Source: Ignavibacteria bacterium
GTDB taxonomy: Bacteria > Bacteroidota > Ignavibacteria > Ignavibacteriales > SURF-24
Assembly: GCA_025612375.1 (NCBI GenBank)
Contig: JAAXKN010000032.1
Span: 1-52,257 of the forward strand
Direction of reading: 5' to 3'
DNA length: 52,257 nt
The translations under genes and the position numbers were made by a program. The notes under the pieces were generated by a model, which saw only the letters and a program-made list of their open reading frames with translations, ran no database searches and was not told the origin of the DNA. Shown here one piece after another: positions 14,060 to 38,895 of the stretch (its first letter is position 1; every line of letters starts with the position of its first letter).

Positions 14060-14083
14060 GCGGCAGGTTTTGATGCCTGCCGC
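14060..14083 (-). other. Intercistronic hairpin between prkA and yeaH-like genes
   Basis: A perfect 8-base-pair stem GCGGCAGG/CCTGCCGC with an 8-base loop. It lacks a following T-run on the minus strand, so read-through is expected. It may stabilise or process the upstream message. Confidence 0.6.
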
Positions 14084-14099
14084 ACAGATTTCACTTTTT

Positions 14100-22497: not shown

Positions 22498-23037
22498 TTA
22501 ATAATCTTCCTCTGCCATTGCGGAAAGGGTTTCTTTCTGGGTGTGGATTTCAACCCATTGGGAAAGCCTCTCGCCAAGCCTTCTGCAGGCTTTTATTTCT
22601 TTATCCATCAGGGGTGCTCCGGCCGATACGGCGCCATAATGGAGGGTAAACTTATCCTCGACATAATCCGTAACACCGAAGACCAGGAAACCGTAATTTA
22701 TTAACATGACGAGAGCCGAGAGGCAGCTGATTTCATTTCCTCCGCCCCAGCCTCCCGAGGATGAGAAAGAGCAGCCGATCTTGCCGTCAATTTTTCCCCA
22801 GAGTTCTTCCTCAATTTCATCCCAGAAGCGTTTCATCTTCCAGGATATGAGTCCCAGACGGGTGGGAGTGCCAACGGCAATGCCGTCGCACCAGAGGACG
22901 TCTTCAGCTTTGGCTTCGTCAACAGATTTCAGGCGTACTTCGTGATGCTGATTCTGTCTTGCCCCTTCAGCAACATACTCGGCCATTTTTTTAGTATTGC
23001 CTGTTGCAGAGTCGTAAAGGACCAATAATTTTCCCAT
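22498..23037 (-). CDS. Flavodoxin/WrbA-like FMN protein
   Basis: A 179-residue flavodoxin-fold protein. The N-terminal FMN phosphate loop is 'YDSATGNTKKMAEYV' (residues about 9-23), the second loop 'GTPTRLGLISWKMKRFWDE' and the third 'SFSSSGGWGGGNE' match the WrbA/NAD(P)H:quinone oxidoreductase pattern. It carries electrons or reduces quinones in the cytoplasm. It follows the solute-binding protein gene by 20 bases. Flavodoxins can also reduce corrinoid proteins for reactivation, so a link with the corrinoid protein at 25648 is possible, but this is inference from neighbourhood only. Confidence 0.85.
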   Translation of the reverse strand: MGKLLVLYDSATGNTKKMAEYVAEGARQNQHHEVRLKSVDEAKAEDVLWCDGIAVGTPTRLGLISWKMKRFWDEIEEELWGKIDGKIGCSFSSSGGWGGGNEISCLSALVMLINYGFLVFGVTDYVEDKFTLHYGAVSAGAPLMDKEIKACRRLGERLSQWVEIHTQKETLSAMAEEDY

Positions 23038-23057: not shown

Positions 23058-24368
23058 TTAATTTGCTGCCCTCAGCAACCTGTCGGACTTTTGCGCCGCC
23101 AGGTCCAGAGCAGATTTTATGTCTGTTTTTCCTATTATGCAGTTTTCCACGGCCTGGGCAATAATCTGGTTAATTTCCACGCGGTGGTAATCAATTACGC
23201 CCCTGGCCTGACCTATAGGTATCTGTTCAACGAAAGCCTTCATGGCAGGATCTTTAGAAAGAAATTCTTTATATGCTTTCAGATCCAGCGTTGAACGCCT
23301 TACAGGAAGGTATCCGGACTTTTCAGAGAACATTGCCTGAACCTCAGGCTGAATGACCCACTTTAAGAATGTCCACGCTTCCTTCGGATGCGCGCTCTGC
23401 TTAAAGATTGCCAGGTGCTCGCCTGCAAGGTATGTTGCCCTTTTAACCGGACCCGCAGGAAGAGACGCAACAGACCAGTCCTTATTATTCATCTTGCGGA
23501 ACTCGGGCAGATCCCACGGCCCATCCATAATCATTGCCAGGCTTCCCGAGGCAAAGCCCAGGTTGTGCGTCATAGTGCATTTTGTAAGATCGAGCCCCTG
23601 ATAAAGGTCCTTCCAGAGTGAGAGCGCCTTTACGCCGGCCTCACTGTTAAATTCAACTTTTGTCTGTTCGGGGTTTATCACCCTTCCTCCCGCCTGCCAG
23701 AGGTACGGTTCCCATTGAAGTATCATCCATATGCTTAAGGGTCCGGAGGCCGGAAAAACAGGGACATAAAACCCGTACTGGTCGGTTATGCCGTCGTGGT
23801 TTTTATCCACAGTAAGTTTTTTTGCGTATTCGCGAAGTTCCGTCCAGTCCTTAGGCGGATGGTTTGGATCGAGCCCCGCCTGCTTAAAAAGCGCCTTGTT
23901 GTAAAAAAGAGCCAGGGTAGTGCATTCCATGGGAAGGGCGTAGAGTGTATCGCGCCACTTTGCCGCCTGGAGCAGCGGGGGGAAGATGTCGTTCATCTCC
24001 TCGTCTGTAAGTCCGTCAGGGCCCTTAATAAAATGGTTCATCGGGTACAGCGCGTCAGCCTCAACAAGCTTATCCATATAGTCCGAATGAATCCATGCGA
24101 TGTCAGGCGCCGTGCGGCTTTGAATTGCGGTAACAAGTTTTTGTATCAGGGGGTCGCCGCTCGGGACGTACTGAGCCCTTATTTTAATATCCGGGTGCTC
24201 ACGTTCGAACCTGTCGATCAGCTCATTTAAGGCCGGAATGGTGTTGGAGACAAAACTGTGCCAGAAAGTAATTACGACTTTGCCATCGTCCTTACTCCTG
24301 CTCCCGCAGCTTAGAGAAGAAAGCGCTGCCGCGGCTGTAAAAATGAACAGTATGAAATATTTTTTCAT
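23058..24368 (-). CDS. Sugar ABC transporter solute-binding lipoprotein (family 1)
   Basis: A 436-residue protein. The N-terminal signal ends at Cys21 (SSLSCGS), a lipoprotein-type cleavage site with a loose lipobox, followed by a polar linker. The 'VVITFWHSF..NTIPALNELIDRFEREHPDIKI' opening and 'WTELREYAKKLT', 'GPWDLPEF' and 'AWTFLKWVIQPEVQ' blocks are typical of UgpB/CUT1 substrate-binding proteins for oligosaccharides or glycerol phosphodiesters. With the UgpC/MsmK-like ATPase at 18793 it suggests an oligosaccharide importer, but the two permease genes usual next to it are missing from the window. A 182-base gap with a heptamer array lies upstream. Confidence 0.9.
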   Translation of the reverse strand: MKKYFILFIFTAAAALSSLSCGSRSKDDGKVVITFWHSFVSNTIPALNELIDRFEREHPDIKIRAQYVPSGDPLIQKLVTAIQSRTAPDIAWIHSDYMDKLVEADALYPMNHFIKGPDGLTDEEMNDIFPPLLQAAKWRDTLYALPMECTTLALFYNKALFKQAGLDPNHPPKDWTELREYAKKLTVDKNHDGITDQYGFYVPVFPASGPLSIWMILQWEPYLWQAGGRVINPEQTKVEFNSEAGVKALSLWKDLYQGLDLTKCTMTHNLGFASGSLAMIMDGPWDLPEFRKMNNKDWSVASLPAGPVKRATYLAGEHLAIFKQSAHPKEAWTFLKWVIQPEVQAMFSEKSGYLPVRRSTLDLKAYKEFLSKDPAMKAFVEQIPIGQARGVIDYHRVEINQIIAQAVENCIIGKTDIKSALDLAAQKSDRLLRAAN

Positions 24369-24525: not shown

Positions 24526-24560
24526 TGAATTATGAATTATGAATTTTGAATTAGAAATTA
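24526..24560 (-). repeat. Heptamer tandem array, five units
   Basis: Five 7-base units: TGAATTA twice, TGAATTT, TGAATTA and a diverged GAAATTA. On the coding (minus) strand the unit reads TAATTCA, and the aldo/keto reductase stop codon TAA is part of the array. The same structure follows the genes at 47198 and 50623. Confidence 0.85.
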
Positions 24561-25576
24561 GATTTATAGTTCCTGTCTTTCCTGTAGATATCAAAGTACC
24601 AGTGGGGATATATTTTCCCCGGGCTGCTTACTTCATCAAGCGCGTGCATCTCGTCTTCTGTAAGCTCCCAGTCACTCGTTTTTATGTTATCCAAAAGCTG
24701 TTCTTTGTTTCTTGCGCCGATTATAACCGAGCTTACGCCGGGTTTTCTTAAAAGGTAGTTAAGAGAGACCTGGCTTATGGAAACATTTCTTTTGGAGGCA
24801 ATTTCCTCCAGCCTCCGGAGTATTTTTTCCCCTTTTTTTGTGTCGTATGGAAGATGGCTTCCGGGCTCCTTGATTCTTGTATCCTTAGGCCACTCGCGCC
24901 CCTGGCGGTATTTGCCCGTCAGAATGCCTCCGTGGAGGGGTCCCCAGACCGTTATTCCAATTTTTTCTTCCAGGCATGCCGGCACAATTTCCAACTCGAG
25001 GTCGCGCCCGACGAGGGAGTAATATGCCTGGAGTGTAATGAACTTTTCATAGCCTCTTTTCTCCTGGATGCTCAAGGCTTTAACAAGCTGCCATGCCATG
25101 AAATTAGAGCAGCCTATGTAGCGCACCTTGCCCTGGCGGACAAGAGTTTCAAAAGCCGAAAGTGTCTCCTCGAGAGGGACCATGAAATCAAATGAATGCG
25201 CCTGGTAAAGATCGATATAATCGGTATTGAGGCGTCTTAAACTTTCATCGCAGGCTTCAATTATTCTTCTGCGTGAAAGTCCCGTTCCGTTCGGGCCTTC
25301 AAAGAGCCTGAAGCCGCATTTGGTTGCAATTACGGCATCTCTGCGCCTTGGGCCCAAAGCGCGCCCGAGCATTTCTTCGGACCTTCCGGAGGAGTAGTTA
25401 TCCGCCGTGTCGAAGAAGTTTACTCCGTGCTCCAGCGCCGCACCGGTCAGTTCATCGGCGTCGTGCTGGTCAAGGCGGCCTACGTGCGTCCAGCCGTCCT
25501 CGCCCGTAAATGTCATTACGCCGAAACAAATTTCCGAGACCTCAAGTCCCGAGTTTCCAAGCATTCTGTAATTCAT
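24551..25576 (-). CDS. Aldo/keto reductase
   Basis: A 341-residue TIM-barrel NADPH-dependent oxidoreductase. The catalytic tetrad is visible: Asp56 and Tyr61 in 'FFDTADNYSSGRSEE', Lys86 in 'VIATKCGF' and His127 in 'YQAHSFD'; the C-terminal 'SVIIGARNKEQL' binds the NADPH phosphate. The 'GWTHVGRLDQHDADELTGAALEHG' opening places it near the AKR YajO/Gfo-type group. It may reduce sugar aldehydes or ketones released from the glycan, for example xylose to xylitol, but the substrate cannot be told. It lies 71 bases behind the corrinoid-protein gene in the same direction. Confidence 0.9.
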   Translation of the reverse strand: MNYRMLGNSGLEVSEICFGVMTFTGEDGWTHVGRLDQHDADELTGAALEHGVNFFDTADNYSSGRSEEMLGRALGPRRRDAVIATKCGFRLFEGPNGTGLSRRRIIEACDESLRRLNTDYIDLYQAHSFDFMVPLEETLSAFETLVRQGKVRYIGCSNFMAWQLVKALSIQEKRGYEKFITLQAYYSLVGRDLELEIVPACLEEKIGITVWGPLHGGILTGKYRQGREWPKDTRIKEPGSHLPYDTKKGEKILRRLEEIASKRNVSISQVSLNYLLRKPGVSSVIIGARNKEQLLDNIKTSDWELTEDEMHALDEVSSPGKIYPHWYFDIYRKDRNYKSNF

Positions 25577-25647: not shown

Positions 25648-26325
25648 TTAGGGGGCCTGTACACCCAGAAGCTCTTTTACTATCGATACGGCCTTAGCCG
25701 CATCCCTTGAATAAGCGTCTGCTTTGATCTCTTCCATAAACTTCCGGCTTACAGCCGCCCCTCCGATAATTACTTTGTTACTTAGCCCTTCCGAGCGCAG
25801 CGCTTCCACAACGAGCTTCATATTGCCGATGGTAGTAGTAAGAAGCGCCGACATGCCGATTACAGCCTTTGGATGTTCCTTTGCCTTCTGGACAAATTTT
25901 TCCACAGGCGTATTTATGCCGAGGTCAATTACCTCGAAGCCGCCGCCTTCTAAAATCATTCCGACAAGATTTTTCCCGATGTCGTGCATATCGCCTTTAA
26001 CCGTGCCTATTATTACGGTGCCGATTTTCCTGGTTTCATCACCTTTAAGGTACGGTTCAAGGACTTTCATTCCCAGCTTCATCGCCTGGGCAGAGACGAG
26101 CATTTCGGGCACGAAGCATTCACCTGCAGAAAATTTCTTTCCTATTTCATCCATGCCCTGAATGAGGCCTTCTTTAAGGATAAGGCCGACTTCGATATCT
26201 TCATCCAGAGCTTTTTGCACGAGTTCACTTACACCCTCTTGCCCCTGCATTTCTGGGGGATAAGGGGACTGCTGGTTTGCATGACCTTTAATTATACAGT
26301 TACTGATCTCTTCAAGTATACCCAT
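25648..26325 (-). CDS. Corrinoid (B12-binding) methyltransferase partner protein
   Basis: A 225-residue protein with an N-terminal helical cap (about 1-95, 'VQKALDEDIEVGLILKEGLIQGMDEIGKKFSAGECFVPEMLVSAQAM') and a C-terminal Rossmann B12 domain with the signature GDMHDIGKN (His114 is the lower cobalt ligand) and 'GGAAVSRKF'. This is the MtbC/MtmC/MttC/MtvC-type corrinoid protein that takes a methyl group from a substrate methyltransferase and hands it on. The URO-D-like methyltransferase at 34366 is its natural partner, 8 kb upstream in the same strand. No RamA-type reductive activator is in the window. In this locus the methyl donor might be an O-methylated sugar or aromatic side group; that is inference. 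Confidence 0.92.
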   Translation of the reverse strand: MGILEEISNCIIKGHANQQSPYPPEMQGQEGVSELVQKALDEDIEVGLILKEGLIQGMDEIGKKFSAGECFVPEMLVSAQAMKLGMKVLEPYLKGDETRKIGTVIIGTVKGDMHDIGKNLVGMILEGGGFEVIDLGINTPVEKFVQKAKEHPKAVIGMSALLTTTIGNMKLVVEALRSEGLSNKVIIGGAAVSRKFMEEIKADAYSRDAAKAVSIVKELLGVQAP

Positions 26326-26384
26326 TTAACAATTTCCCTTAGTTATTCAGTTTTATGTTTAGCAATTCCGCAAGGAAGGAGTTT

Positions 26385-27593
26385 TCAGCGCCCGTAATGC
26401 TTAAGCATTGGGAGGTCCCGATTTATATCGGGGCCGAAGAACTTGTAGATTATGAGGTCACGCTGCCCGGTGTTTTCAACTGTGAGATCCTTCTGTGCAC
26501 GGTCTGAAGTAACGAGGATCTCATCCTGGTTAAAGTTACCGCCTTCGATCTCAAAGCCTGCAAAAAGTCCTTTGCCCTTCCAGACGAGTATGTTATAAAC
26601 GCCGTTATCTTTTGAAGTAAATTTTCCTCCCGGGTGAACAACAAGTTTTTTACCGCTGAAGCTTAAGGTGTTGTAGAATATCCAGTACTCCTCGCCCCCA
26701 CGCTGTTTAGTTTCTTCAATAAGGACAGGAGGGGTGTGGCGGTTTTCGTAGAAGTAAGGGTCTCCGCTTACCTCCCAGTTTATCATTTCAAGAATGATCT
26801 TTTCGCCGAATTTCTTTTTATCCTCCGGGCGCACATCCTTATAAAGGAGGTCCTTGTTTATTGTGTGGCTGCCCACTTTTGCCTGCATCATGGAAAACAC
26901 GTCTGAGTCCTCCTGGAGCTCAATAGTAAGCGCCGTGCCGGGAGCGTGAAGCGTGCCGGCGGGGACGTGGAAGCCGTCGCCTGAGATCTGCTTAAAGGCT
27001 CTTGCGTGCTGAAGTATGGAGTCGTCTTTCCATTCCACCATGTGCGGAAGAAGGAGGTCGTACTTTTTCTCTTCGGCAATATAGGGATGCACGCCGAAAA
27101 ATGTTTCAGGGCTTTTACCCATTTCAACTTCCTCTGGGAAGTAGTAGGCTTCTTCCTTGGAGTTGCAGCCAACGAGTTTTGCGTGCTGCTGCATCTGGTG
27201 GATGTGGTAGGGCAAGCGTTCCTCGTAATCAAATATTTTGGGTAGGCGGTTTAAGCCTTTGTGTGTCTTTGAATACTCAGTTCCCATTATTGCCTCAGGC
27301 GCATTTTCAACGGCGTCTTTAAGCGTGATGCGTTCGCCGGAGGAGATCATAAGGAAGCTTAAGCCTTCAAAGGGGACGCCCACCTTGTTGTCTGCTTTTG
27401 TTGTGGACCCGACCCAGCGTTCGCAGATGCCGCCACGGTCGCCAAGTTCATACTGGTTTTCCGGCAGTCCAAGCCGGCGCCCCGGGGGTAGGAAATCCCT
27501 TGCCACCCAGGCGGGTTCAAGCCTCAGGATGCCGTCATTTTTTTTAATTTCCTGTTCAACAACTGTTTTAATGTTAATTTCTGTTGTTTCCAT
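26385..27593 (-). CDS. Cupin-type mannose-6-phosphate isomerase-like protein
   Basis: A 402-residue two-cupin protein related to class I phosphomannose isomerases. The metal site is seen in 'LPYHIHQMQQHAKLVGCNSKEEAYYF' (broken into HIHQMQQHAK and KEEAYYF), and 'GDGFHVPAGTLHAPG' is the typical second block. Family members isomerise mannose 6-phosphate and fructose 6-phosphate, or other aldose/ketose sugars. The N-terminal 'PAWVARDFLPPGRRLG' differs from E. coli ManA, so another sugar is likely. A family E repeat lies 56 bases upstream of the start. It is followed by the corrinoid-protein gene after 59 bases. Confidence 0.8.
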   Translation of the reverse strand: METTEINIKTVVEQEIKKNDGILRLEPAWVARDFLPPGRRLGLPENQYELGDRGGICERWVGSTTKADNKVGVPFEGLSFLMISSGERITLKDAVENAPEAIMGTEYSKTHKGLNRLPKIFDYEERLPYHIHQMQQHAKLVGCNSKEEAYYFPEEVEMGKSPETFFGVHPYIAEEKKYDLLLPHMVEWKDDSILQHARAFKQISGDGFHVPAGTLHAPGTALTIELQEDSDVFSMMQAKVGSHTINKDLLYKDVRPEDKKKFGEKIILEMINWEVSGDPYFYENRHTPPVLIEETKQRGGEEYWIFYNTLSFSGKKLVVHPGGKFTSKDNGVYNILVWKGKGLFAGFEIEGGNFNQDEILVTSDRAQKDLTVENTGQRDLIIYKFFGPDINRDLPMLKHYGR

Positions 27594-27648
27594 TTATATT
27601 CTCCTGTATATAAGATTATTTACAAATTTTGTCGTGCCGCATAGAATA

Positions 27649-27780
27649 TGTCGCCCCTTCGGGGCTCCGGAGGGTGCTTGGTATTTCTTCCCCGGGGTTC
27701 AGTCACCCCTCCGGGGTTTCCTCATCCCGGGCTACAAATAAAGCGCCCCTCCGGGGCTTAGTAATTGCGTAATGATAAAT
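27649..27780 (-). repeat. Family E multi-hairpin intergenic repeat, copy 2
   Basis: About 132 bases with hairpins CGCCCCTTCGGGGC, CCCCGGGG-type, CACCCCTCCGGGGT and GCGCCCCTCCGGGGC, ending in TTAGTAATTGCGTAATGATAAAT. It aligns with 22298-22430 end to end. On the minus strand it forms the leader between the GH2 gene and the isomerase-like gene. Confidence 0.8.
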
Positions 27781-27804
27781 GATCTTGTTTTATTGGCCTT
27801 TTAG

Positions 27805-30531
27805 TTAAAGTTGATGCGTATTGGCCGTATAGCGCGCCAGGTTGTAAAAGAGCGTTTTGGAAAAAGGATCTTTATTGTAATTTTCCGCAACGGGCAGTGT
27901 ACATAGGACGAGTTTGCCTTTTCCTACATTTGTCTCATATATGAATGCGGAATTAAGGTGAAGCCAGCCGATGTACATTCCGGACAGGACGTTCTTAAAG
28001 TTCTGAGGTTCTATTCCTGAAATGACGAGCTGCGGAGTTGAGTATGTGGATTCAAAGCCCAGGTATTTGCCGAAGCTGATATCCTTAAACGGGGCGCGCC
28101 CGGGCCTTATCCAGTTGAAGTTGCTGGCCCAGTTGCCGTCGTACCATTCGCTTTTTCTTGAGATGACTTTGAGCTTCATTGAGTCTGGAATTTTAGTCAG
28201 GGTGTCAACAAGGCATAGCACCGGGGAACCGCTCTCAAGTTTGCTTAAGATATTTTCGTCCAGCGTGTTTGTTATAATTAAGTTTCCATTAGATGTATTC
28301 CCTTTAACCTCTTTCAGATGTGAAAGATTTTCATGCTGATCCATAACGGTAATTTCAGGGTACTGCGCGTTTTCAATGGACGGATAGACAAATATTTCCG
28401 TAAAGTTTTTTGCGCAGGGTTTTCCATTTTTATCCACAAGTTCAAACTCGACGCGCATCTTTTCAGGCTTCTTAACATTGGATGCCTTAAGCTGGATTAA
28501 AGGCATTTCAGTTACTGAGGCTGAACTGCCAATATCCACCGGGAGGCTTCCTTTCTGATTCCCGTTTGCTTTCCAGTTAAGTTTTGCACCCTTCAGATCC
28601 TGGCTGCTGTAGTGCGAGATATAAAGTTTAACTGAAGGGTTTTCGCCCGCCCAGTAAGTGTATTTTTCAGGGCGCGGAATAATCACATCCTGCTGCTGAA
28701 TGTCTGAAATATTTTTTGCCGAATATTTCATATTGCGCCACATGTCAAGAAGCCCGTTGGACTCCCAGTTGATGTCTGTAAATTCTGTTATTACGTATCC
28801 CTGCAGTTCAGGGTGAAGCCTTATCTCTTCAATTTCATATTTTAACGCCATGAACTGCGCCTTCTGGCTTTCAGAGGCAAGGGAGTTATAGTTTCCGAAG
28901 GTCTCAGCAAAGTTATAGTCGTTAAATCTTTTGTGGACGCCTTCAGGCATTGAGACTTCAATATCACCAAACCTGCGGCTAAACCACCACGGGAGCTTAT
29001 CCGGCAGCTCAGGAAGCCCCCAGTTGCCGAATTCAGACAAAAGGAGCGGCTCCTGTTTTGTCTCCTCAGCGTCGCCAAATTTGCTGAAGAGCCAGTCAGG
29101 GCGATCTGCAACAGATTTTACGGTTTCGTCAAACTTAAGGCGGTTATCGGGAATTGAATAATATGTATGATAGTCGTTGATGTCGGTTTTAAGGTGGAAG
29201 TTGCCGTAGCAGGCGCTGTTATCTACAACGAGGCGACCTTTAGCCATTTCCTTTGTGCGGTTGAAAGCTGACTTAAGCCACTGCCTCTGATCCTCCTTCT
29301 GAAGGTCGATTCCCCAGCTTTCATTTATGATGCTTAATATTACAAGTGAAGGATGATTCCAGTCGCGCTTAAGCATAAGAGAAAGCGTCTCTTCGCCGCG
29401 CTTTGCGGCATCCGTTGTAAAGACATCCCAGTTAGGGATTTCGTACCAGACTAAAAGCCCCACTTCGTCGGCCACTTTGAGGTATCTTGTATCAGGCACC
29501 TTGATGTGGCATCTTAAGGTATTAAGCCCCATCTTTTTGGCCTTTAGCATTTCATCTCTTATGTATTCTTCGGAAGGGGTGGAGTAGACTGTCTCGGGAT
29601 AAAAGTCCTGATCCAAAGCCGCCATTAGGTAAAAGGGCTTGCCGTTTAAGAACATCATCTTATCTTTAGCTTCAATTGTTCTGAAGCCGAAACGTTCAGT
29701 TACTTTACTTTTACCCAAGACAAAATCAGCAGAATAAAGGTTAGGATGCTCAAAGCTCCAGAGGCCAGGGTTCTGAATTTTCCCCTCGTAGCGAAAACTT
29801 CTGCCGTCACCTGCTACAGGAGCGCTTGCCTTAAGCACGCTTTTATTGCCGGGACCTTTTACAATGATCTCAACATTTTTATTATTCTTTGAGGAATTTC
29901 CTTCGAGCATGCCTTCAATTACAATGCTGCCGTCGTTGGAAGGGGTAATATGGACATAGCTTATATATTGTTCAGGCTTTACCTCAACGTATGCCGTTCT
30001 CCAGATGCCGCTGGTCTGAACGTACCAGGACTGTTTGCCGTGAGGGATATTCCAGTAGCTTACGCCTTCGGTGCCTTTTTCCGTTCCCGCGGGATCCATT
30101 ACTCTAAGCGTTACATTGTTTTTACCTTTTGTTACAAGGGGGGTTACGTCAAACTCAAAAGGCGTATAGCCTCCCTCGTGGCGCCCTGCGGCTTTGCCGT
30201 TTACAAACACTTCCGCCATGTAATCTACGGCGTCGAAGTGAAGTATGACTTGTTCTGTTTTATCTACGACAGGCAGCTTAAAAGTTCTGCTGTACCATGC
30301 GACGCCCTGGTAGTCGCGAAGATCTGAAAACTGCGCCTGCCAGGAGAGGGGGACTTTAGCCTCACGCCATTTGGCCTGAAGTTTAACGTTATCGATTGTA
30401 AAACTTCCCGCCGTATCCACGGCGAAGTTCCACGTGCCGTCCAAAGAGACCTGCTGGGCCATGGTATTACGGTTTAATATTATGCTAAGAATAGCTGCTA
30501 ATAAAAGAAGCACTGTACCTGGAATTTTCAT
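27805..30531 (-). CDS. Secreted GH2-family glycoside hydrolase
   Basis: A 908-residue enzyme with a Sec signal peptide (residues 1-25). The N-terminal sugar-binding domain (30-190, 'LDGTWNFAVDT..') and immunoglobulin-like domain (190-290) precede the TIM barrel with acid/base Glu404 in 'LSIINESWG' and nucleophile Glu500 in 'LLLSEFGNWG'. C-terminal domains of unknown type follow (650-908). GH2 covers beta-galactosidases, glucuronidases and mannosidases; the substrate is not clear, but in a xylan context a beta-galactosidase or alpha-L-arabinopyranosidase-type activity is plausible. Its ATG overlaps the stop of the upstream SDR gene by one base (TAATG), so they are translationally coupled. Confidence 0.9.
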   Translation of the reverse strand: MKIPGTVLLLLAAILSIILNRNTMAQQVSLDGTWNFAVDTAGSFTIDNVKLQAKWREAKVPLSWQAQFSDLRDYQGVAWYSRTFKLPVVDKTEQVILHFDAVDYMAEVFVNGKAAGRHEGGYTPFEFDVTPLVTKGKNNVTLRVMDPAGTEKGTEGVSYWNIPHGKQSWYVQTSGIWRTAYVEVKPEQYISYVHITPSNDGSIVIEGMLEGNSSKNNKNVEIIVKGPGNKSVLKASAPVAGDGRSFRYEGKIQNPGLWSFEHPNLYSADFVLGKSKVTERFGFRTIEAKDKMMFLNGKPFYLMAALDQDFYPETVYSTPSEEYIRDEMLKAKKMGLNTLRCHIKVPDTRYLKVADEVGLLVWYEIPNWDVFTTDAAKRGEETLSLMLKRDWNHPSLVILSIINESWGIDLQKEDQRQWLKSAFNRTKEMAKGRLVVDNSACYGNFHLKTDINDYHTYYSIPDNRLKFDETVKSVADRPDWLFSKFGDAEETKQEPLLLSEFGNWGLPELPDKLPWWFSRRFGDIEVSMPEGVHKRFNDYNFAETFGNYNSLASESQKAQFMALKYEIEEIRLHPELQGYVITEFTDINWESNGLLDMWRNMKYSAKNISDIQQQDVIIPRPEKYTYWAGENPSVKLYISHYSSQDLKGAKLNWKANGNQKGSLPVDIGSSASVTEMPLIQLKASNVKKPEKMRVEFELVDKNGKPCAKNFTEIFVYPSIENAQYPEITVMDQHENLSHLKEVKGNTSNGNLIITNTLDENILSKLESGSPVLCLVDTLTKIPDSMKLKVISRKSEWYDGNWASNFNWIRPGRAPFKDISFGKYLGFESTYSTPQLVISGIEPQNFKNVLSGMYIGWLHLNSAFIYETNVGKGKLVLCTLPVAENYNKDPFSKTLFYNLARYTANTHQL

Positions 30532-31574
30532 TATACGTACTCCCTGAGTAAATTATTGCGGTAATTTTTCCACTCCTGAATGAATTGGATTTCATCCTCT
30601 CTTTTTTCGTAGCCGAAAGAGTGCCCGTTGAACTCACTGGTAAACCAGCTGATTGTTTTCTTCATCCATTCATCAAAAGGAGTGGAATGGTAGTTAAGAT
30701 CTTTTTTTATTTTATCCAGACTGAAAATTGAAGTGCGCCTGACGTTAAAGGGGAAGACATCCCCGTTCATATTGCGGCTAAGGGGAAGAGAGTCGAAGAC
30801 CTCCTGATCCACGTGCACGAGTTCAGGCTTTTTATCTAAGAGGCTTCCAAGCTTATATATGTAATCGTTAAGCGAGAATATCTCTTCGGCCGCAGCGTTA
30901 TAGGCCTGGCCGATTGAGGCTTCAGTCTCAAGGAGGCTTGCGAAAGCTTTAGCCACGTCCTCAACGAATACTTCCTGGAAAGCGTGGTCCCCGCTTCCGG
31001 GAACAAGAAGGGGTTTTCCGTCCAGGATTCTTTCAATCCAGAAAAAGTCGCGCATGGCAAAGTCGTGAGGGCCTGCAATATAAGTGGGCCTTATCATGCT
31101 GACAGGGAATAATTTTTCGTCGTGGAGTTTCCAAAGGACGTCCTCGCAGGCTCTTTTCTTTATGCCGTAATCCATACCGAAGGGGTTACGTTCAAAGTAG
31201 GGCATGAGTTCACCTTTATCCTGGTCCTCTGTAATAGGGCACTGCACGTTATTGGAGACCATATAGACGGAGATTGTGCTGCAGTGGATAAAGCGCCCCA
31301 CTTTGCCGCGGAAGACTTTTGCCGCCTGTTCAGAGCTTTTAGGGTGATATGAGATCATATCATATGCGGCGTCATAGGTTTTATTTTCGACCAGGCTTTT
31401 AAGCGCATGCTCCTCGCGGCGGTCGCCAGCGAGAAGGTTTAAGTTCTTATGGGGTTTAAGCCTGTTTTCAGATTCCCCGCGAGTAAAAGCCGTAACGCGG
31501 TGACCTTTTTCGAGGAGATGTTCCACGAGGGAGGTGCTTATTAGTCCCGTCCCGCCGATTACAAGTATATCCAT
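30531..31574 (-). CDS. NAD-dependent epimerase/dehydratase (extended SDR)
   Basis: A 347-residue protein. The dinucleotide-binding 'VIGGTGLIS' (residues 5-13) and the active-site Tyr136-x3-Lys140 ('DYGIKK') are present, with Ser in 'HCSTISVY'. It is an extended SDR of the sugar-nucleotide epimerase group. It may alter a free or nucleotide-bound sugar; substrate unknown. It is separated from the GH13 gene upstream by a 380-base repeat region, so it may start a second transcription unit of the locus. Confidence 0.88.
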   Translation of the reverse strand: MDILVIGGTGLISTSLVEHLLEKGHRVTAFTRGESENRLKPHKNLNLLAGDRREEHALKSLVENKTYDAAYDMISYHPKSSEQAAKVFRGKVGRFIHCSTISVYMVSNNVQCPITEDQDKGELMPYFERNPFGMDYGIKKRACEDVLWKLHDEKLFPVSMIRPTYIAGPHDFAMRDFFWIERILDGKPLLVPGSGDHAFQEVFVEDVAKAFASLLETEASIGQAYNAAAEEIFSLNDYIYKLGSLLDKKPELVHVDQEVFDSLPLSRNMNGDVFPFNVRRTSIFSLDKIKKDLNYHSTPFDEWMKKTISWFTSEFNGHSFGYEKREDEIQFIQEWKNYRNNLLREYV

Positions 31575-31954
31575 GTTATACCAAAAATTTATTTAGAATA
31601 AAATGGTAATTAAGCAAAATCTAATCCCAATTAAGTTATGTAAAGCCGAGCATGCATAAACGGCCAGGTTGCCAATTCCCGGTGAGGCATTACAAAAAAG
31701 AATGCCACCTCAATTCAGAGTTCCGGAGGAACGACTTGTCTATAGCAGAGGATGGATCACCACCTCTCTTCAGAGCCTCGGAGAGGCGACTTGTATTAAC
31801 GGATACGCGTGTCAATTCCCTTTTTACAAGTCGCTCCTCCGGAGCTCTGAATGTTTTTTTGAGAGGTGTTTTCTACAGACAAGTCGTTCCTCCGGAACTC
31901 TATGGCTGTGTTATGCTAAACCTCTCTTTGGCATTGTGTTTTATTAGCTTCTTA
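31575..31954. other. 380-base intergenic region with family D repeats
   Basis: No gene is supported. It contains four family D repeats and is the largest gap within the minus-strand carbohydrate locus, so a promoter for the SDR-GH2 unit may lie near 31575-31660. Nothing else is recognised. Confidence 0.6.
31716..31902. repeat. Family D palindromic repeat, four copies in two orientations
   Basis: Copies at 31716-31739 and 31771-31794 are inverted relative to those at 31826-31849 and 31879-31902, making a near-symmetric array. Stems are GTTCC/GGAAC, GCCTC/GAGGC and GCTCC/GGAGC around a TCC loop; flanks are ACAAGTC and TCTG. Three more copies lie at 5304-5436. Confidence 0.8.
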
Positions 31955-34300
31955 CTATTTCAAGAGCAGCATCTTCATTGTAAGAGCGCGGCCTGAAGAC
32001 TGCAGGCGGCAGAGGTATATTCCGCTGGCATACTTTGAGGCATTGAATACCGCCGTATAATTGCCTGCATTTTTATAACCCTCTTCAAGCACTTCCACTT
32101 CCTTGCCCAGGATGTCGTAAACCTTCAGGCTTACAGGACCGCTTTTATCTATGCTGTAGCGGATGGAAGTTGAGGGGTTAAAGGGGTTCGGGTAGTTCTG
32201 CGCCATGGCAAAGGATTCGGGCACCGTGTTTTGTGCCACGTCAACTCCCGAGACCACCATGGCCGTATCGGCAAGAAGCATAACTGAAGCCGAGTAGCCG
32301 TTCATATCCAGCTTCAGGGCCGCAAGCTCACTTAGTTTTCCTGAAATAACTTTTCCGCTTATTATATCCGTCATGTAGTAAGTCTTTGCAGAGTCTAGTC
32401 CCAGTTTTTCTACAGGAATTGTCAGCTGCGCACTGACGGGATTTGAATCCATATTGAGGACTGTAAAAACATTCTGACTGCTTTCCCACCTGCGGAAGGC
32501 AAAAACGTTTTTATTGGGACTTACTGTTTCTTCCTCGTAGTTATTACTGTAGAGCGCAGGAACGGTTTTTCTGAAATCGATCAGTTTCTGGTAATATGGG
32601 AAGAGCCCCTTTTTGTCCGTCGACTTTATTGGCACGCCCGGAGTATAAGTGGGATAATCGTCGTATGCATGCCCTGTAATGCCTGCCTCCTGGCCGTTGT
32701 AAAGCATCGGGATTCCGTTTAAGGAAAACTCCAGTGCCGCAGCCATCTTTGTCTGATCGAGCGTGTGGTGCGTTAAAAAATGATACGTGTCGTTGTTTTC
32801 AAGGAATCTTAATATCTTAGCATTAGGAGCGTAGCCTTTGCCATTATTTGTAAGTGAATTTCTAAGAGGAGCTGAACGCCCGTTGGTGAAGTTTGTATTA
32901 AATATTGTCGGGTTGCTTGTCTGACTGTAGCTGGTCTGCCACACCCACTGCGAGACCCAGCTTTCGGAAGCTGTCCAGTCGAATGCCGCATCGAACCTTT
33001 CATCGAAAGCCTCGGGCCATGAAGCCTTATCCTCTCCCAGGAGCAAACAGTCGGGTTTAATTCTTTTGAGCGCCAGGCGGAGCTCTTTTGTAAATTCAGG
33101 TTTTCTGGCCGTTACTCCCCATATGGCATCTAAGCGGTATCCATCGAGGTCGTACTTTACGAGCCAGTACTTTACGGCTTCCAGTATCCAGCGCTGAACC
33201 TCCGGATTATCAAAATTCAGATTCGGGAGTTCTTTCCAGAAATAATTCCAGAACAGGCCGTCGGCAGTATTTTCATGCATTGAATACGGAGTTCCGGAAG
33301 GGCTTTTCTTCCGCTGGTAATAATTCCAGTAATGCGACTTTTCCTTATATTTTACTGACTGCTGGGCGTAGGGGTGATAAATGGAAGTATGATTAGCCAC
33401 AAAATCAAACATCACCTTAATTTTATTTTCTTTGGCAGTTCTTATCAGCTCACGCAGATCGGCCTCACTTCCCAGGTCGCTTCTTAAGGAAAAGTAATCT
33501 GTAACGTCGTATCCCATGCCGCCGCCATGGGTGCTGTAAACCGGCTGAAGCCAGATGGCAGTAATGCCGAGCGAGACAAGTTCAGGAATTTTAGCTGTAA
33601 TATTCTTAAACTGATTGGACTCGGTAAAAGTATAGGGATATATTTCATAGATAACCGCTTTATCTATCCACTCCGCATGATCTGTTTTAATGTTAAAGGG
33701 TTTAATTCCCGAGGTATCCACGGTGACATACGTGCGGGCTTTTACCGTGTCGCCGTCTGAGGCAGCAACGGTAAGATTAAAATAATATTCCCCCTTAGCT
33801 ATATCCTGAGGCATGCTGAAAGTGGTACTGTTTCCCGTCACAGATGCAAGCGCAACAGAAGCCGGGTTAAGAGGGTCAGCGTTCCACGTGTATGTAAGCT
33901 GTGCGCTGTCGGGGTTTTCAATTACCTCGCTTTTAAGTGTGACAGTTCTTCCCTGGACTTCCGCATAGGCATACATTTCGGGGCGAAGTTTGTAGCCCAA
34001 GGTCAGCTTCAGTGTATCCGAAAGAGCGGTTTTTCCCATGCTGTCGGCGGTGACATAAACCGCATTTAAGCCTTCGCCAATTTTTAATTGTGCGGAGAAG
34101 GTAAAGCTGTCGGGAGCTACGCTAACGTTTTGACTTTTGCCATTAAGAAAAAGTGTGGCGTTATTTACTATAAGTCCTTCAATATGCCCTTTTATCAACT
34201 GCTGCTGACCCCATACTGTAGCCGACATTTCGTCAAGCACGACCTTCTGGGCAAAAACAGGCATTGAGCTTAAAAGCAATATGCAGAATATTTTCTTCAT
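31955..34300 (-). CDS. Secreted GH13 alpha-amylase-family enzyme with T9SS sorting domain
   Basis: A 781-residue enzyme. A signal peptide (1-17), two N-terminal immunoglobulin/PKD-like domains (about 20-200) and the GH13 barrel (about 210-600) are followed by a type A sorting domain with NYPNPFNP and a terminal 'GIYLCRLQSSGRALTMKMLLLK'-type end. Catalytic residues: Asp391 (DGYRLDAIWG), Glu423 (LLLGEDK) and Asp504 (LENNDTYHF). It should act at the cell surface or outside on alpha-1,4-glucans or related oligosaccharides. A starch-type enzyme in a xylan locus suggests a mixed plant-cell-wall or storage polysaccharide target. Confidence 0.92.
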   Translation of the reverse strand: MKKIFCILLLSSMPVFAQKVVLDEMSATVWGQQQLIKGHIEGLIVNNATLFLNGKSQNVSVAPDSFTFSAQLKIGEGLNAVYVTADSMGKTALSDTLKLTLGYKLRPEMYAYAEVQGRTVTLKSEVIENPDSAQLTYTWNADPLNPASVALASVTGNSTTFSMPQDIAKGEYYFNLTVAASDGDTVKARTYVTVDTSGIKPFNIKTDHAEWIDKAVIYEIYPYTFTESNQFKNITAKIPELVSLGITAIWLQPVYSTHGGGMGYDVTDYFSLRSDLGSEADLRELIRTAKENKIKVMFDFVANHTSIYHPYAQQSVKYKEKSHYWNYYQRKKSPSGTPYSMHENTADGLFWNYFWKELPNLNFDNPEVQRWILEAVKYWLVKYDLDGYRLDAIWGVTARKPEFTKELRLALKRIKPDCLLLGEDKASWPEAFDERFDAAFDWTASESWVSQWVWQTSYSQTSNPTIFNTNFTNGRSAPLRNSLTNNGKGYAPNAKILRFLENNDTYHFLTHHTLDQTKMAAALEFSLNGIPMLYNGQEAGITGHAYDDYPTYTPGVPIKSTDKKGLFPYYQKLIDFRKTVPALYSNNYEEETVSPNKNVFAFRRWESSQNVFTVLNMDSNPVSAQLTIPVEKLGLDSAKTYYMTDIISGKVISGKLSELAALKLDMNGYSASVMLLADTAMVVSGVDVAQNTVPESFAMAQNYPNPFNPSTSIRYSIDKSGPVSLKVYDILGKEVEVLEEGYKNAGNYTAVFNASKYASGIYLCRLQSSGRALTMKMLLLK

Positions 34301-34365
34301 AATTGTATCCGTGTTTATTCAAGGATAAATAAAGCAGGATGACTAATAATATCCAGAGCGAAATT

Positions 34366-35514
34366 CTAATACCTGCCGTAGGTTTTGGCTACTTCCACCA
34401 TCTTAAATAAATTGGCGTCGGGGGTGTCGCGGCCGCACTGGTCGCCGGTGGAGAGTATGAAGCCGCCATCACGCGCGGCATCGTCAATAAGGCGTTTGGA
34501 TTTTTCTTCTATTTCTTTGGGCGTTGCATTAAGCATGAAGTCGGTTGTGTTAATGTTGCCCTTAATGCAGAGCTTACTTCCAACGCGCCTTTTGGCTTCT
34601 TTCAAGTCCACATTGCCCGACGGGGGCTCTTCCAAAGGCTCCATGGACATAAGATCTGTCTCTTCGGCAACCATTTCCACCAGCTGCCACGATTTTCCGC
34701 AGATGTGCAGGTGCGAGATTGCGCCTTTTTCTTTGCATATTTTTGTGGCCTCTTTTATAAAGGGGAGCTCATATTTCCGGAATATCTGGGGTGAGCTTAC
34801 GCTGAGGCTTGCACTTGATCCCCCAAGCATTATGACGTCGGGCTTAGCTTCAATCATTGCACGGACGTTTGCAAGAGACCACTCCATCCAGAACTCGTGC
34901 ACGCGGTCCATGAAGGAAGACTCCATCATAAAATCCATAAACATAGTCTCAAAGCCACCGTCGCGGTAGAAAAACCACCAGTCCTGGAATACCGGCACCA
35001 TTCCCATATAAATTCCGTTATCCCCCATGCGCCCGCGGTCGTTAAACTTTGTCTCCCATTTCCAGCCTCCGCAGCCCATTAAAAGCTGCAGCTTTTCAAA
35101 ATCCTCATGGAGGTTTTTTACAGGTTTTTCGAGCCTCCAGGGTGGTTCATCCTTAAAATAGATCTCTTTTTCCGTCAGGTCACCTTTTTCAGTGCGGCAG
35201 ACTCTTTCGGCTACTTTTCCTTCAGGGGAGTCTTTAATTGTAGTTACAAATTCCGGGGCGCCTTCAGGGCGCAATTCCTTAAGGCCGCCGTACATGTAGA
35301 AGCCGTCCATATCAAAATATTTTACCGCACTGACGTAAGCCTCGCTGTGCGTTGCCGAGGTCCAGCCGTTATGCTCGCGACCGTCCAAATGGATTTCATA
35401 GAACGGACGACCTGTCAGGCGGTCGGGGACCATTACGGATATATCGGGACTTACGGGCACGTGGTCGGCAACTCCGCCTTTCATTGCAGTAAGTATTCTT
35501 TCCTTTGGTGTCAT
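34366..35514 (-). CDS. URO-D-family corrinoid methyltransferase
   Basis: A 382-residue TIM-barrel protein of the uroporphyrinogen decarboxylase/MtaA-MtbA-CmuA family. The zinc site of the methyltransferases is visible as H-x-C in 'HLHICGKSW' and a later Cys in 'STGDQCGRDTP', which true HemE decarboxylases lack. It therefore probably transfers a methyl group to or from a corrinoid protein, most likely the one at 25648. It sits between GH10 and GH13 genes with short gaps (21 and 65 bases), so it is part of the glycan operon. URO-D-like proteins of unknown role occur in other carbohydrate loci; an O-demethylating role here is inference. Confidence 0.85.
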   Translation of the reverse strand: MTPKERILTAMKGGVADHVPVSPDISVMVPDRLTGRPFYEIHLDGREHNGWTSATHSEAYVSAVKYFDMDGFYMYGGLKELRPEGAPEFVTTIKDSPEGKVAERVCRTEKGDLTEKEIYFKDEPPWRLEKPVKNLHEDFEKLQLLMGCGGWKWETKFNDRGRMGDNGIYMGMVPVFQDWWFFYRDGGFETMFMDFMMESSFMDRVHEFWMEWSLANVRAMIEAKPDVIMLGGSSASLSVSSPQIFRKYELPFIKEATKICKEKGAISHLHICGKSWQLVEMVAEETDLMSMEPLEEPPSGNVDLKEAKRRVGSKLCIKGNINTTDFMLNATPKEIEEKSKRLIDDAARDGGFILSTGDQCGRDTPDANLFKMVEVAKTYGRY

Positions 35515-35535: not shown

Positions 35536-37185
35536 TTAAATTTTTGCGCCGCGGGGAAGCTTATTCCACGCGCCAAGAAGCTCTTTCATCCTGGAGAAAG
35601 AGATCTTGGTTGAGCAGTCTTCACGAACCAGTCCGCCGCCCGGGATAAAGGGACGGAAGTCGGAGAAGTCGTACCAGTTAATTGCCTTAATGGACGGGCG
35701 GCTGTAGTAAAGGTTATAGACCTGCTCCAGCCAGTCGGCCTGGAGCTCCTCGTCCCAGTGGCGGTGCCAGTCGTAAGGCCCCTCGGGAAGCTTCATATCG
35801 CCTGAGGCAACCATTTTATTATTTGGTCCTGCGGAGGCGCCGATCTCGGTTATATAGATCGGTTTGCCGAATGTTTCAAGCCTTTCTAGCAAGCGCACTA
35901 TGTCTGACAAATCGCGCGCAGGGAAGTAGATCTGGATTCCGAGGACGTCGTAGTCCACTCCGGCCTCTGTTACGTCTTCAAGGTATTTTCTTGGTGAACG
36001 TAAGGGGCGTGTAGCGTCCATTCTTGCCATTCTGCCTCTTGCCGCGTACTCAGCCCACGGGCAGCAGTTATTAAGTATCTTTACCACTTTAGGATTAACT
36101 TCTTTGGTCTTGTCGCATGCAAGGCGCACAATTTCCGTTATCTGCTCGGGCGTATGGTTATGTATGTTAGCCCAGTCGTGGTACTCATTTATAACTTCCC
36201 ACTGCTGAATCTTGTCGCCGTAGTGGCTTACCAGGTCCTTTGTGTGCTTTTCGACGTATTTCTTCAGCTCGTCAAAGTTTTTATTTTTAAGCCAGTCGGG
36301 TGTAACCGTGGGGTGAAACCAGAAAAGCGGGCGCCCCTGAATTGTAATATTATTTTCCAGGAGCCAGTTTACAATGTCGTCTTTAATGCCCCAGTTGTAG
36401 TAGCCTTCGCGCGGCTCAAAAAGTTCATACCATGAATCCCACACATAATGAGTTACTGTGGAAAAATTAAAAAGCTCTACAAACCTTTTCTGGAATTCCT
36501 CGCTTCTGGCCCAAACGTACTGCCGGCTTTCGCATCCGAAGGCGACGTTATTGTTAATAGAGCGTTTTGCAATTTCGAAGGCCGCCTTCTCGAGCTCAAT
36601 TTTTTCCCCGGCCCAGAGGGCATATTCAAGAGCCTTATCTGCAAGGCGGGCACTTTTTTCTCCGCTGGAGAGTTTTTTCCCGGCGTCTTCAAAAAGTTCT
36701 TCCGAGGCTGCAGTAAGGTGTTTTACTTCGCTTGAAAACTGTGCGCCCTGGCTCTCATATTTTGCTTTCACTTTACGGTTTCGCATTACGCGGGAGCGCG
36801 CGAACTCGTAGTTAAGGCTTCCTTTTGGGCTAAAATTAGCGGCCGAAAAGAACTCCCCTCCGTTATCGGCAGAAAGCCAGATAAAGCCGAAGCCTTCGAC
36901 AAACCAGCGTGTATTTATGGAAAACTTTTTATTTCCCAGGTCCTGGGGGACCACGATTCCGTCCTGTGTAATTGCAGCCTGGCTCTTAAACGGGTCCTCA
37001 TTTTCATCTGCCAGGTACACAAAATCCATCTTAGGCATCCAGGGATGGGGGTAGGGAACGAGGGCCGGGCTGTTCAGCGTACGGGCAAAAATCCTTTCCC
37101 AGCCTGAATAAAGTGGTGAGGCTGCAAGGGCCGCGCCTCCTAAGGCACTGTAGCGCAAAAACTCTCTTCGTGAAATTGTTTTCAA
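35536..37185 (-). CDS. GH10 endo-xylanase with Tat signal
   Basis: A 549-residue enzyme. The N-terminus carries a twin-arginine signal 'SRREFLRYSALGGAALAA' (residues 5-22). Residues about 45-130 form an extra N-terminal domain shared with the neighbouring GH10. The barrel has acid/base Glu334 in 'WEVINEYHDW' and nucleophile Glu447 in 'IYITEIGASAG'. GH10 enzymes cut internal beta-1,4 bonds of xylan. It is exported folded by Tat. It is a tandem paralogue of the gene at 37213, 27 bases away, from which it has diverged widely. No sorting domain or lipobox is seen, so it stays in the periplasm or is released. Confidence 0.92.
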   Translation of the reverse strand: MKTISRREFLRYSALGGAALAASPLYSGWERIFARTLNSPALVPYPHPWMPKMDFVYLADENEDPFKSQAAITQDGIVVPQDLGNKKFSINTRWFVEGFGFIWLSADNGGEFFSAANFSPKGSLNYEFARSRVMRNRKVKAKYESQGAQFSSEVKHLTAASEELFEDAGKKLSSGEKSARLADKALEYALWAGEKIELEKAAFEIAKRSINNNVAFGCESRQYVWARSEEFQKRFVELFNFSTVTHYVWDSWYELFEPREGYYNWGIKDDIVNWLLENNITIQGRPLFWFHPTVTPDWLKNKNFDELKKYVEKHTKDLVSHYGDKIQQWEVINEYHDWANIHNHTPEQITEIVRLACDKTKEVNPKVVKILNNCCPWAEYAARGRMARMDATRPLRSPRKYLEDVTEAGVDYDVLGIQIYFPARDLSDIVRLLERLETFGKPIYITEIGASAGPNNKMVASGDMKLPEGPYDWHRHWDEELQADWLEQVYNLYYSRPSIKAINWYDFSDFRPFIPGGGLVREDCSTKISFSRMKELLGAWNKLPRGAKI

Positions 37186-37212: not shown

Positions 37213-38895
37213 TTATGATTTCGTGGGAAGTGATTTCCAGTACTGTTCCAGTTTCATGAGGCGGTCGTAAGCCGGTTTCTTTTCTCCCTGCGGGGATGAA
37301 AGAAGGCCGCCATTTTTAATCCATGCGTAAGGATCGACAAAGTCGTACCAGTTAATTGCCTCTATCCACGGTTTGCTGTATGCCAGTGAGTACATGCCTT
37401 CAAGCCAGTCTGCCTGAAGCTCCTCGTCCCACGGGCGGTGCCATACGTAGGGTTCCTTTGGAAGGTCGAGCCTGCCTGAGAATATGGAATCTTTTGTAGG
37501 GCCCGAGCTTGCGCCAACTTCGGTCAGCTGCACGGGGCGCCCGAACTTCTCAAGGCGTTCAACAAGTATTATTGTATCCTGCAGATCCCTGTACGGGAAA
37601 TACATCTGCTGGCCTGTAATGTTGAAATCGACTCCAGCGTCCACGAGGTTCTGCATAAACTGATGCGGCGTCCTCTGGTGGTACTTTGCATCAATGTTAC
37701 CCCACTTTTTAAGCTGTACGTATTCGGCATATGGGCAGCAGTTATTTATGAGTCTTTTAACCTTCGGGTTCGTGTCCTTTGCTACGTCACAGGCAAGGCG
37801 TGTAATTTCAACTATCTGCTCGTTATTAAGCTGAAGTTCATTTGCCCAGTCGTGAATTTCATTTACAACTTCCCAGGCGTACATCTCGCTTCCGTAGTGG
37901 GAGACAACGGTGCGGGCGTGCTTTTCGATGTATTTTCTTAATTCATCATAAGTTTTCTTCCTCAGCCAGTCGGGCGTTACGGTCTCATAGAACCAGAACA
38001 AGGGGCGTCCTTCGACGGTAATGTTTTTATTTCTTAGTTGTCTTAAGACCGCGTCCCTTAAGTCAAAGCGGGGGTCGCCTTCAACAGGTTCAAAATCCTG
38101 ATAGGAGTTGCTTTTAAGGTAATGCGTAATTGTGGCGTAGTTAAATAAAGCCGTAAACTCTTCCATAAATGTGTCGGGATCCATCTGATAGAAGCCCCGG
38201 GCGTCGCATCCGATAAAGAAGTTCGGGCGGAAGCCGCGCTTTTCTATATCGCTTTGAGCCTTACTAAGCTCCAGCTTTTCTCCTCCCCACATCGCGTAGT
38301 AGAGTGCGGTCTGTGAAAACTCTGCGCATTTTTCTTTATCCTGCATATATTTTTCGGCATCGGAGAGGAAATCTTCCGAGAGATCCAGGAATGCCTGAGC
38401 GTCTTTGGCTGCTTTCCAGCCGGGGGTTTCATCTGTAAACTTTTTAAGGCGTCTTCTGTTTCTGTGGACGCGGCTTTTTGCAAGCTCATAGTTGAGGTTT
38501 AGTTCAGATTGTTTTCCTTCCTTGGGAAGCGTGTAGAATTCGCCCCCGTTATCGGCAGTAATATAAATGTAGCCAAAGCCTTCGACGTTCCACCGAACGT
38601 CAATTCCGAACTTGTCAACGCCTTCGGTATCAGAGACTTTCACGCCGTCTTTTCCGGCAGTGATATTGGAATGGAAAGCGTCCCAGTTTTTGTCGCTTGC
38701 ATAGGCCCAGTCGAGGAGGTTCGGGCCGCGCCCTTTCTGTACGTAGTAGGGTTTAAATAATAGTTCTCCCTGGAGAGTCTTTGCTGCAACCCTTCCACGG
38801 GTCAGCACTTCCGGCATGCCCTGGAGCCATTTAGGTATAAATAAGGCTCCTGCCCCAGCCAGAGTGGTTTTGGTTATGAATTCCCTGCGGTCTAT
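37213..38895 (-). CDS. GH10 endo-xylanase with Tat signal, apparent ATA start
   Basis: A 560-residue enzyme if translation starts at the ATA at 38895-38893. That start follows AGAGAGG by six bases and yields M-D-R-R-E-F-I-T-K-T-T-L-A-G-A-G-A-L, a good Tat signal. The first ATG in frame (38817) lies 26 codons later, removes the whole signal and has no good ribosome binding site. An in-frame TAA at about 38928-38930 excludes a much longer form. The barrel has acid/base Glu346 ('WEVVNEIHDW') and nucleophile Glu459 ('LTEVGASSG') in this numbering. Barrel and N-terminal domain match the neighbour at 35536. Either a rare start codon or a sequence error is involved. Confidence 0.85.
   Translation of the reverse strand: MDRREFITKTTLAGAGALFIPKWLQGMPEVLTRGRVAAKTLQGELLFKPYYVQKGRGPNLLDWAYASDKNWDAFHSNITAGKDGVKVSDTEGVDKFGIDVRWNVEGFGYIYITADNGGEFYTLPKEGKQSELNLNYELAKSRVHRNRRRLKKFTDETPGWKAAKDAQAFLDLSEDFLSDAEKYMQDKEKCAEFSQTALYYAMWGGEKLELSKAQSDIEKRGFRPNFFIGCDARGFYQMDPDTFMEEFTALFNYATITHYLKSNSYQDFEPVEGDPRFDLRDAVLRQLRNKNITVEGRPLFWFYETVTPDWLRKKTYDELRKYIEKHARTVVSHYGSEMYAWEVVNEIHDWANELQLNNEQIVEITRLACDVAKDTNPKVKRLINNCCPYAEYVQLKKWGNIDAKYHQRTPHQFMQNLVDAGVDFNITGQQMYFPYRDLQDTIILVERLEKFGRPVQLTEVGASSGPTKDSIFSGRLDLPKEPYVWHRPWDEELQADWLEGMYSLAYSKPWIEAINWYDFVDPYAWIKNGGLLSSPQGEKKPAYDRLMKLEQYWKSLPTKS

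Follow-up and report, generated by a model that had tools for sequence, protein, structure and literature searches.

The Ignavibacteria bacterium contig JAAXKN010000032.1 (assembly GCA_025612375.1; its full 52,257 nucleotides are referred to here as the window) carries, among genes for glycan breakdown, a small corrinoid protein (P1) and a methyltransferase of the URO-D fold (P3). Together these may make up the substrate side of a corrinoid-dependent O-demethylase acting within a glycan-utilization locus, with the methyl group going to homocysteine in this organism, a reading to which we give about even probability. It is built on the observed genes, protein fold, residue alignment, synteny and gene presence or absence. 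A third protein (P2) belongs to the module formed by URO-D, corrinoid and MtaB genes in relatives. The three genes are:

25648..26325, - strand: P1, corrinoid methyl-carrier protein, 225 aa (assigned from Pfam/NCBIfam, PDB and a tree)
26385..27593, - strand: P2, 402 aa, weakly similar to mannose-6-phosphate isomerase (type I, cupin)
34366..35514, - strand: P3, URO-D-fold corrinoid methyltransferase, candidate sugar O-demethylase (methyltransferase I, MT I), 382 aa

The corrinoid carrier P1

P1 has the cap (PF02607, 1e-16) and the B12-binding domain (PF02310, 3.4e-23) with a DxHxxG motif, present as GDMHDIGKN, that define a methyltransferase corrinoid protein. Its closest curated models are methyltransferase corrinoid proteins, as are its best solved relatives in the PDB, together with MetH B12 domains. 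The original prediction, which covered exactly the span from P1 to P3, was therefore right in describing a complete corrinoid carrier. In a tree, P1 groups with the corrinoid proteins that are partnered by an adjoining MtaB in relatives (support 87/88). Both P1 (dN/dS 0.059) and P3 (dN/dS 0.045) are under strong purifying selection relative to the nearest relative.

The similarity of P2 to ManA is weak. P2 is 27% identical to a protein (L045:12254-13420) that matches PF21621, and its orthologs in relatives are 59-92% identical. The AlphaFold model of P2 was set aside because of its low predicted local distance difference test score (pLDDT 43.9).

P3 has a URO-D fold and a predicted His-Cys-Asp metal site

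P3 belongs to the URO-D superfamily (PF01208, 1.9e-24 over residues 187-379; 86.8 bits against a cut-off of 23.9). Its AlphaFold model (pLDDT 92.2; predicted template modelling score 0.91) fits the HemE and MtaA folds along its entire length (Z 27-28). Scores with MtaA-type models fall below their cut-offs (TIGR01463, MtaA/CmuA, 76 bits against 235; NF040654, MtaA, 64 bits against 400). The P3 profile matches MtaA at E 1.5e-12 and CdmB, the only relative of the aromatic O-demethylases compared, at E 0.41.

For comparison of the metal site, a profile of 39 P3-family members was aligned to MtaA. H270 and C272 match the His-x-Cys zinc ligands of MtaA, so this part of the predicted HxC...C pattern stands, but the third ligand position is D358 and not C360. 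The alignment is free of gaps across the C-terminal motif (STGDQCGRDTP in P3, APGCGIAPMTP in MtaA), and the third zinc Cys of MtaA falls on D358, which is invariant among the 39 members; three relatives have V or P instead of C360. P3 thus differs at this position from the His-Cys-Cys zinc site of the MtaA/MtbA type. A His-Cys-Cys (thiol type) reading taken from an automatic alignment was dropped after the profile alignment had put D358 at the ligand position.

H270, C272 and D358 are the predicted metal ligands. In the wider URO-D family, His-Cys-Cys goes with methyl transfer to or from sulfur or selenium and substitution by a carboxylate with O-methyltransferases (Kountz & Balskus, PMC10418091), while zinc is absent from some O-demethylases (PMC13222342). 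Because the carboxylate of D358 stands at the third ligand position in the sequence alignment, P3 looks, by this rule, like an O-methyl enzyme. A separate substrate-specific methyltransferase, as first proposed, is not needed, since P3, with a carboxylate in its predicted metal site, is likely to be the substrate-side enzyme.

Alternatively, P3 might be an acceptor-side enzyme, which, like MtaA of methanogens, would pass the methyl group of CH3-P1 to a thiol. The donor would then be MtaB with methanol in relatives and some other enzyme here, glycan esters supplying the methanol. MtaA is the closest sequence to P3 and a close match in fold, it shares H270 and C272, and the order URO-D - corrinoid - MtaB in relatives (see below) resembles mtaA/mtaC/mtaB. 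The invariant Asp in place of the third Cys of MtaA argues against such a role, as does the distribution of MtaB.

P3 is linked to glycan genes in several phyla

Three orthologs, searched against 84,980 species genomes, yielded 75 loci, of which 17 were informative (P3 at 56-90% identity, with upstream sequence present). In 14 of these 17, drawn from several phyla, a GH10-family gene immediately precedes P3. The order MFS (major facilitator superfamily) - PIG-L - GH10 (several) - P3 - GH13 - epimerase - GH2 - P2 - (MtaB) - corrinoid - aldo/keto reductase is largely kept between Ignavibacteriota and Neomarinimicrobiota. The linkage of P3 with glycan genes is not due to chance. The proposed corrinoid O-demethylation of sugar ethers is thus supported in part, in so far as synteny across phyla ties methyl transfer to glycan breakdown, but not in the substrate that had been named (see below).

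MtaB and the corrinoid gene occur within the same glycan locus in L051, L059 and L199. Elsewhere, P3 is followed by the corrinoid gene and MtaB (L054, L055, L056 and L066, plus L067, L070 and L074 of a 44% clade). The compact module of L066 (sugar-isomerase-like TIM barrel - P3 - corrinoid - MtaB - P2) lies outside any glycoside hydrolase (GH) cluster. In L064, a single operon holds corrinoid - MetH-activation domain - RACo - P3.

Several other loci were noted. Two from Bathyarchaeota (L076 and L077) are distant, have V in place of C360 and lie outside any glycan context. In the 44% clade, proteins of 772-802 aa without a Pfam match adjoin P3 (L067:6519-8927 and L068:13254-15572). In L047, L048, L192, L194, L200 and L201, several URO-D paralogs cluster with a corrinoid protein, often together with genes for homocysteine methyltransferase, a MetH-activation domain, CobW-like proteins, FucU or glycoside hydrolases. 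These clusters suggest that possible methyl-sugar or methyl-X systems form a wider family.

P1 and P3 probably work without MtaB

MtaB of the relatives is readily recognized (PF12176, E about 1e-155). None is found in the window genome (100% complete by tool estimate; the positive control worked) or in G296, whose locus (L049) has P3 at 90% identity. In both genomes the corrinoid gene directly follows P2, whereas L051 has P2 - MtaB - corrinoid. Few genomes of the phylum sample have MtaB (4 of 296, two of them, G004 and G200, with P3 orthologs). Of the other P3-family genomes, 17 of 28 have it, versus 2 of 294 others in the phylum sample, a difference (Fisher p 4e-19) to be read in the light that the test ignores phylogeny and that most P3-family metagenome-assembled genomes (MAGs) were recruited via P3 itself.

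As P1 and P3 are under purifying selection in two genomes that lack MtaB, P3 is no mere accessory of MtaB, and so the two proteins probably work without it. The strength of this selection in the absence of MtaB also counts against P3 being an acceptor-side enzyme, and so does the fact that MtaB stays next to GH10 genes far less often than P3; such a role is rather unlikely. On locus data alone MtaB and RACo seemed to alternate without exception, a pattern that was dropped because whole genomes did not bear it out.

Candidate activator and methyl acceptor genes elsewhere in the genome

Contig C15 carries an operon of URO-D - RACo - MetH-activation domain - homocysteine S-methyltransferase (HcyMT) - phosphorylase-like protein. 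Its RACo (PF14574, E 5e-76) provides the RamA-like activator that had been anticipated. The C15 URO-D, unlike P3, keeps a Cys at the third ligand position (by inspection). Further URO-D genes were likewise anticipated and are found on C15 and C1. A dedicated folate-linked methyltransferase, the remaining partner named, was not found, as Pterin_bind matches only a FolP-sized protein (C52) and full-length MetH. The stand-alone HcyMT, with RACo and the MetH-activation-domain protein, is the likelier sink.

The nearest relative, G296, keeps HcyMT - MetH-activation - RACo (L177), and a stand-alone HcyMT occurs with corrinoid and URO-D genes in G116, L184, L188, L192 and L194, some of them beside glycan genes. 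Because HcyMT accompanies both RACo/MetH-activation (C15 and G296) and the corrinoid/URO-D genes of relatives, homocysteine is, from gene content, the likeliest methyl acceptor in the window genome.

The fold of P3 also overlaps that of MetE, and distant members of its family stand alone in many phyla. P3 could then belong to the broad methylcobalamin-dependent family resembling methionine synthase, its position in a glycan locus being incidental. Core-MetE, the model for such an enzyme, is reported to use methylcobalamin and homocysteine (PMC7005905). Synteny with GH10 across phyla, Asp rather than Cys at the third metal-ligand position and a genome already equipped with full MetH and stand-alone HcyMT all speak against this, and it is quite improbable.

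C1 holds a second corrinoid/URO-D pair (L016:9741-11453). Its URO-D has a His-x-Asp metal site with no Cys at the third position, and a single-protein PDB search with it gave no match. No glycoside hydrolase was recognized beside the pair.

The locus and its possible substrate

Between about 52 kb and about 18.8 kb, the window has a run of co-directional genes on the - strand. As the original prediction stated, P1 and P3 lie on the same strand as GH10, GH2, GH13 and other enzymes: the run with P1 and P3 also encodes two GH10-family proteins, GH2, GH13, GH42, PIG-L and MFS proteins, an ABC solute-binding protein and ATPase, an aldo/keto reductase, an epimerase and a xylulokinase. Its members include:

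43925..46189, - strand: GH42-family hydrolase, adjoining the module in L054 and L058
42652..43989, - strand: MFS transporter
41256..42617, - strand: PIG-L deacetylase-like protein, conserved in L049, L057, L058 and L063
38921..41245, - strand: secreted protein of 774 aa without a Pfam match, possibly a hydrolase (by inspection only)
37213..38817, - strand: GH10b, second GH10-family hydrolase
35536..37185, - strand: GH10a, GH10-family hydrolase with an N-terminus resembling a twin-arginine translocation (Tat) signal, directly upstream of P3
31955..34300, - strand: GH13-family secreted hydrolase with a type IX secretion tail, the next gene downstream of P3
30531..31574, - strand: NAD-dependent epimerase/dehydratase-like protein
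27805..30531, - strand: GH2-family hydrolase
24551..25576, - strand: aldo/keto reductase
23058..24368, - strand: carbohydrate ABC solute-binding protein
22498..23037, - strand: flavodoxin-like protein, 63-68% identical in related loci
19883..21436, - strand: xylulokinase (XylB; TIGR01312, 599.7 bits against a cut-off of 380)

The position of the GH13 gene beside P3 is the same in relatives, and the 774 aa secreted protein has orthologs in L049 (84%) and L063 (54%). The flavodoxin-like protein is a possible electron donor for corrinoid reduction.

Description of the locus as xylan-type is plausible but loose. Both GH10-family proteins keep both catalytic-glutamate motifs (WEVINE and ITEIG); they are, however, divergent (best match to a solved xylanase E 2.4e-15), and a Pfam scan of proteins from the window, to which this search was confined, recognized no GH67 or GH115 α-glucuronidase. 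Nor was a uronate pathway seen in the window. For 4-O-methylglucuronate, the substrate originally suggested, the window offers no support other than the name of the GH10 family; xylulokinase and a mannose-6-phosphate-isomerase-like protein are linked to the module instead. As the xylulokinase scores above its curated cut-off and P2 is isomerase-like, these genes point rather to a methylated pentose. An FGGY kinase is also encoded in L054.

Plant polymers that GH10 enzymes attack are linked to phenolics bearing methoxy groups. P3 and P1 might then demethylate methoxylated aromatics, such as lignin or hydroxycinnamate fragments freed with xylan, in the manner of OdmB, VdmB and MtvB, with which they share a superfamily and a three-component logic. 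This is improbable, as CdmB, closely related to O-demethylases of this type, is the marginal match to the P3 profile given above, no aromatic-catabolism protein was recognized among the locus proteins scanned, and the compact module of L054 and L066 holds genes for a sugar isomerase-like TIM barrel, NHL and P2 proteins instead.

A PhyH-family dioxygenase (21466-22224, - strand) is a possible oxygen-dependent alternative for demethylation. Were sugar ethers demethylated oxidatively by this predicted Fe/2-oxoglutarate enzyme, the corrinoid pair would serve another purpose. Two related loci, L063 and L115, encode this PhyH protein at 72-74% identity, and the only characterized demethylation of a methoxy-sugar found is oxidative, by a P450 (PMC10033563). 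Most related P3 loci, however, show no PhyH within the stretch read, making an oxidative route here highly improbable.

Two other regions of the window were noted. Genes at 46216-50584 (- strand) encode a Gfo/Idh dehydrogenase (levoglucosan-dehydrogenase-like, below cut-off), a xylose-isomerase-like TIM barrel, a DUF6259 protein and a ureidoglycolate-lyase-like protein, and may represent a keto-sugar route. At 8521-16163 (- strand), two PrkA-like proteins, a SpoVR protein and a DUF444 protein lie in one run, which resembles a general stress cluster.

Proposed pathway

The substrate class, direction of transfer, methyl acceptor and pairing with the activator are inferred as follows. The GH10, GH2, GH13 and GH42 hydrolases would release oligo- and monosaccharides, some of them O-methylated. 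P3, a TIM barrel, would take the methyl group from a methyl ether of a sugar and load it onto Co(I) of P1, its predicted His-Cys-Asp metal site stabilizing the leaving alkoxide, and the demethylated sugar might be isomerized and phosphorylated by P2 and xylulokinase. The stand-alone HcyMT of C15 would pass the methyl group of CH3-Co(III)-P1 to homocysteine, giving methionine without folate, while RACo and the MetH-activation-domain protein, encoded in that operon too, would serve to reduce Co(II) again. Where MtaB adjoins the corrinoid gene, as in some relatives, methanol may be the exchange partner for the methyl group, being released or possibly taken up.

Several points weigh against this pathway. 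P3 is nearest in sequence to a thiol methyltransferase, MtaA, and only marginally similar to CdmB, the relative of aromatic O-demethylases. C360 is nearly invariant too and could be a ligand. Several related glycan loci with P3 (L057, L058, L060 and L063) have no corrinoid gene within 10 kb, and distant P3 homologs (about 35%) occur in non-glycan contexts. Neither stand-alone HcyMT (8 of 9 MtaB-lacking genomes versus 6 of 11 of the others, p 0.12) nor RACo (6 of 9 versus 4 of 11, p 0.18) is significantly associated with the lack of MtaB, and the genomes compared are mostly incomplete MAGs.

A broader scheme can be put forward only tentatively. Anaerobic O-demethylation of glycans may be widespread, with URO-D enzymes feeding small corrinoid proteins and these feeding interchangeable sinks, homocysteine or methanol. 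Equally tentatively, the homocysteine sink would be folate-free methionine synthesis by a dismantled MetH with RACo, and the methanol sink MtaB in reverse, in effect a corrinoid-catalysed hydrolysis of ethers.

Comparison with known systems

Plants, algae and bacteria commonly cap their polysaccharides with methyl ethers. If the proposed pathway is correct, anaerobes could gain access to methylated sugars, and the methyl group would either be saved for methionine or leave as methanol, on which methylotrophs feed. It would also assign a function to the large family of URO-D genes, so far unnamed, that adjoin those of glycoside hydrolases. The parts (corrinoid carrier, URO-D MT I, RACo, HcyMT and MtaB) are of known kinds. 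What appears to be new is the combination of a URO-D/corrinoid demethylase with glycoside hydrolases, which was not found in the open-licence literature searched; nor was any direct precedent there for corrinoid demethylation of methyl sugars.

The anaerobic O-demethylases (OdmB-OdmA, VdmB, MtvB-MtvC and MtoB-MtoC) are alike in having a URO-D-fold MT I, a small separate corrinoid protein and an ATP-dependent RACo-type activator, here encoded elsewhere in the genome. Their substrates are aromatic, whereas P3 is linked to glycans, is much closer in sequence to MtaA than to CdmB, the OdmB/VdmB relative, and has no pterin-type MT II in its locus. In the MtaA-MtaB-MtaC system the likeness is to relatives that carry a true MtaB beside the corrinoid gene and P3, and MtaA is the closest fold to P3 other than HemE; the present system is bacterial, lies inside a glycan locus, lacks MtaB and has Asp for the third zinc Cys.

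Type 1 mlp clusters, which by definition comprise two or more Mlps, a corrinoid protein and RACo encoded in one direction within 2 kb, also combine URO-D-family proteins, corrinoid protein and RACo without a folate methylase (PMC10418091). Here there is one P3 gene in the locus, RACo is on another contig (C15), His-Cys-Cys is absent and the setting is one of glycans, not of sulfur or selenium. Phaeobacter and Ruegeria, in their split methionine synthase and glycine betaine demethylation (PMC5764234, PMC12478193), share a separate corrinoid protein between a demethylating methyltransferase and HcyMT, with RamA-like activation as here. The donor-side enzyme of the present system is instead of URO-D type and glycan-linked, and no separate pterin module was found.

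P450 demethylation of 6-O-methyl-D-galactose (PMC10033563) likewise removes the methyl group of a methoxy-sugar inside a glycan locus. That route, the sole one found in the searchable literature, is oxidative and oxygen-dependent and releases formaldehyde, whereas the corrinoid route would keep the methyl group and need no oxygen.

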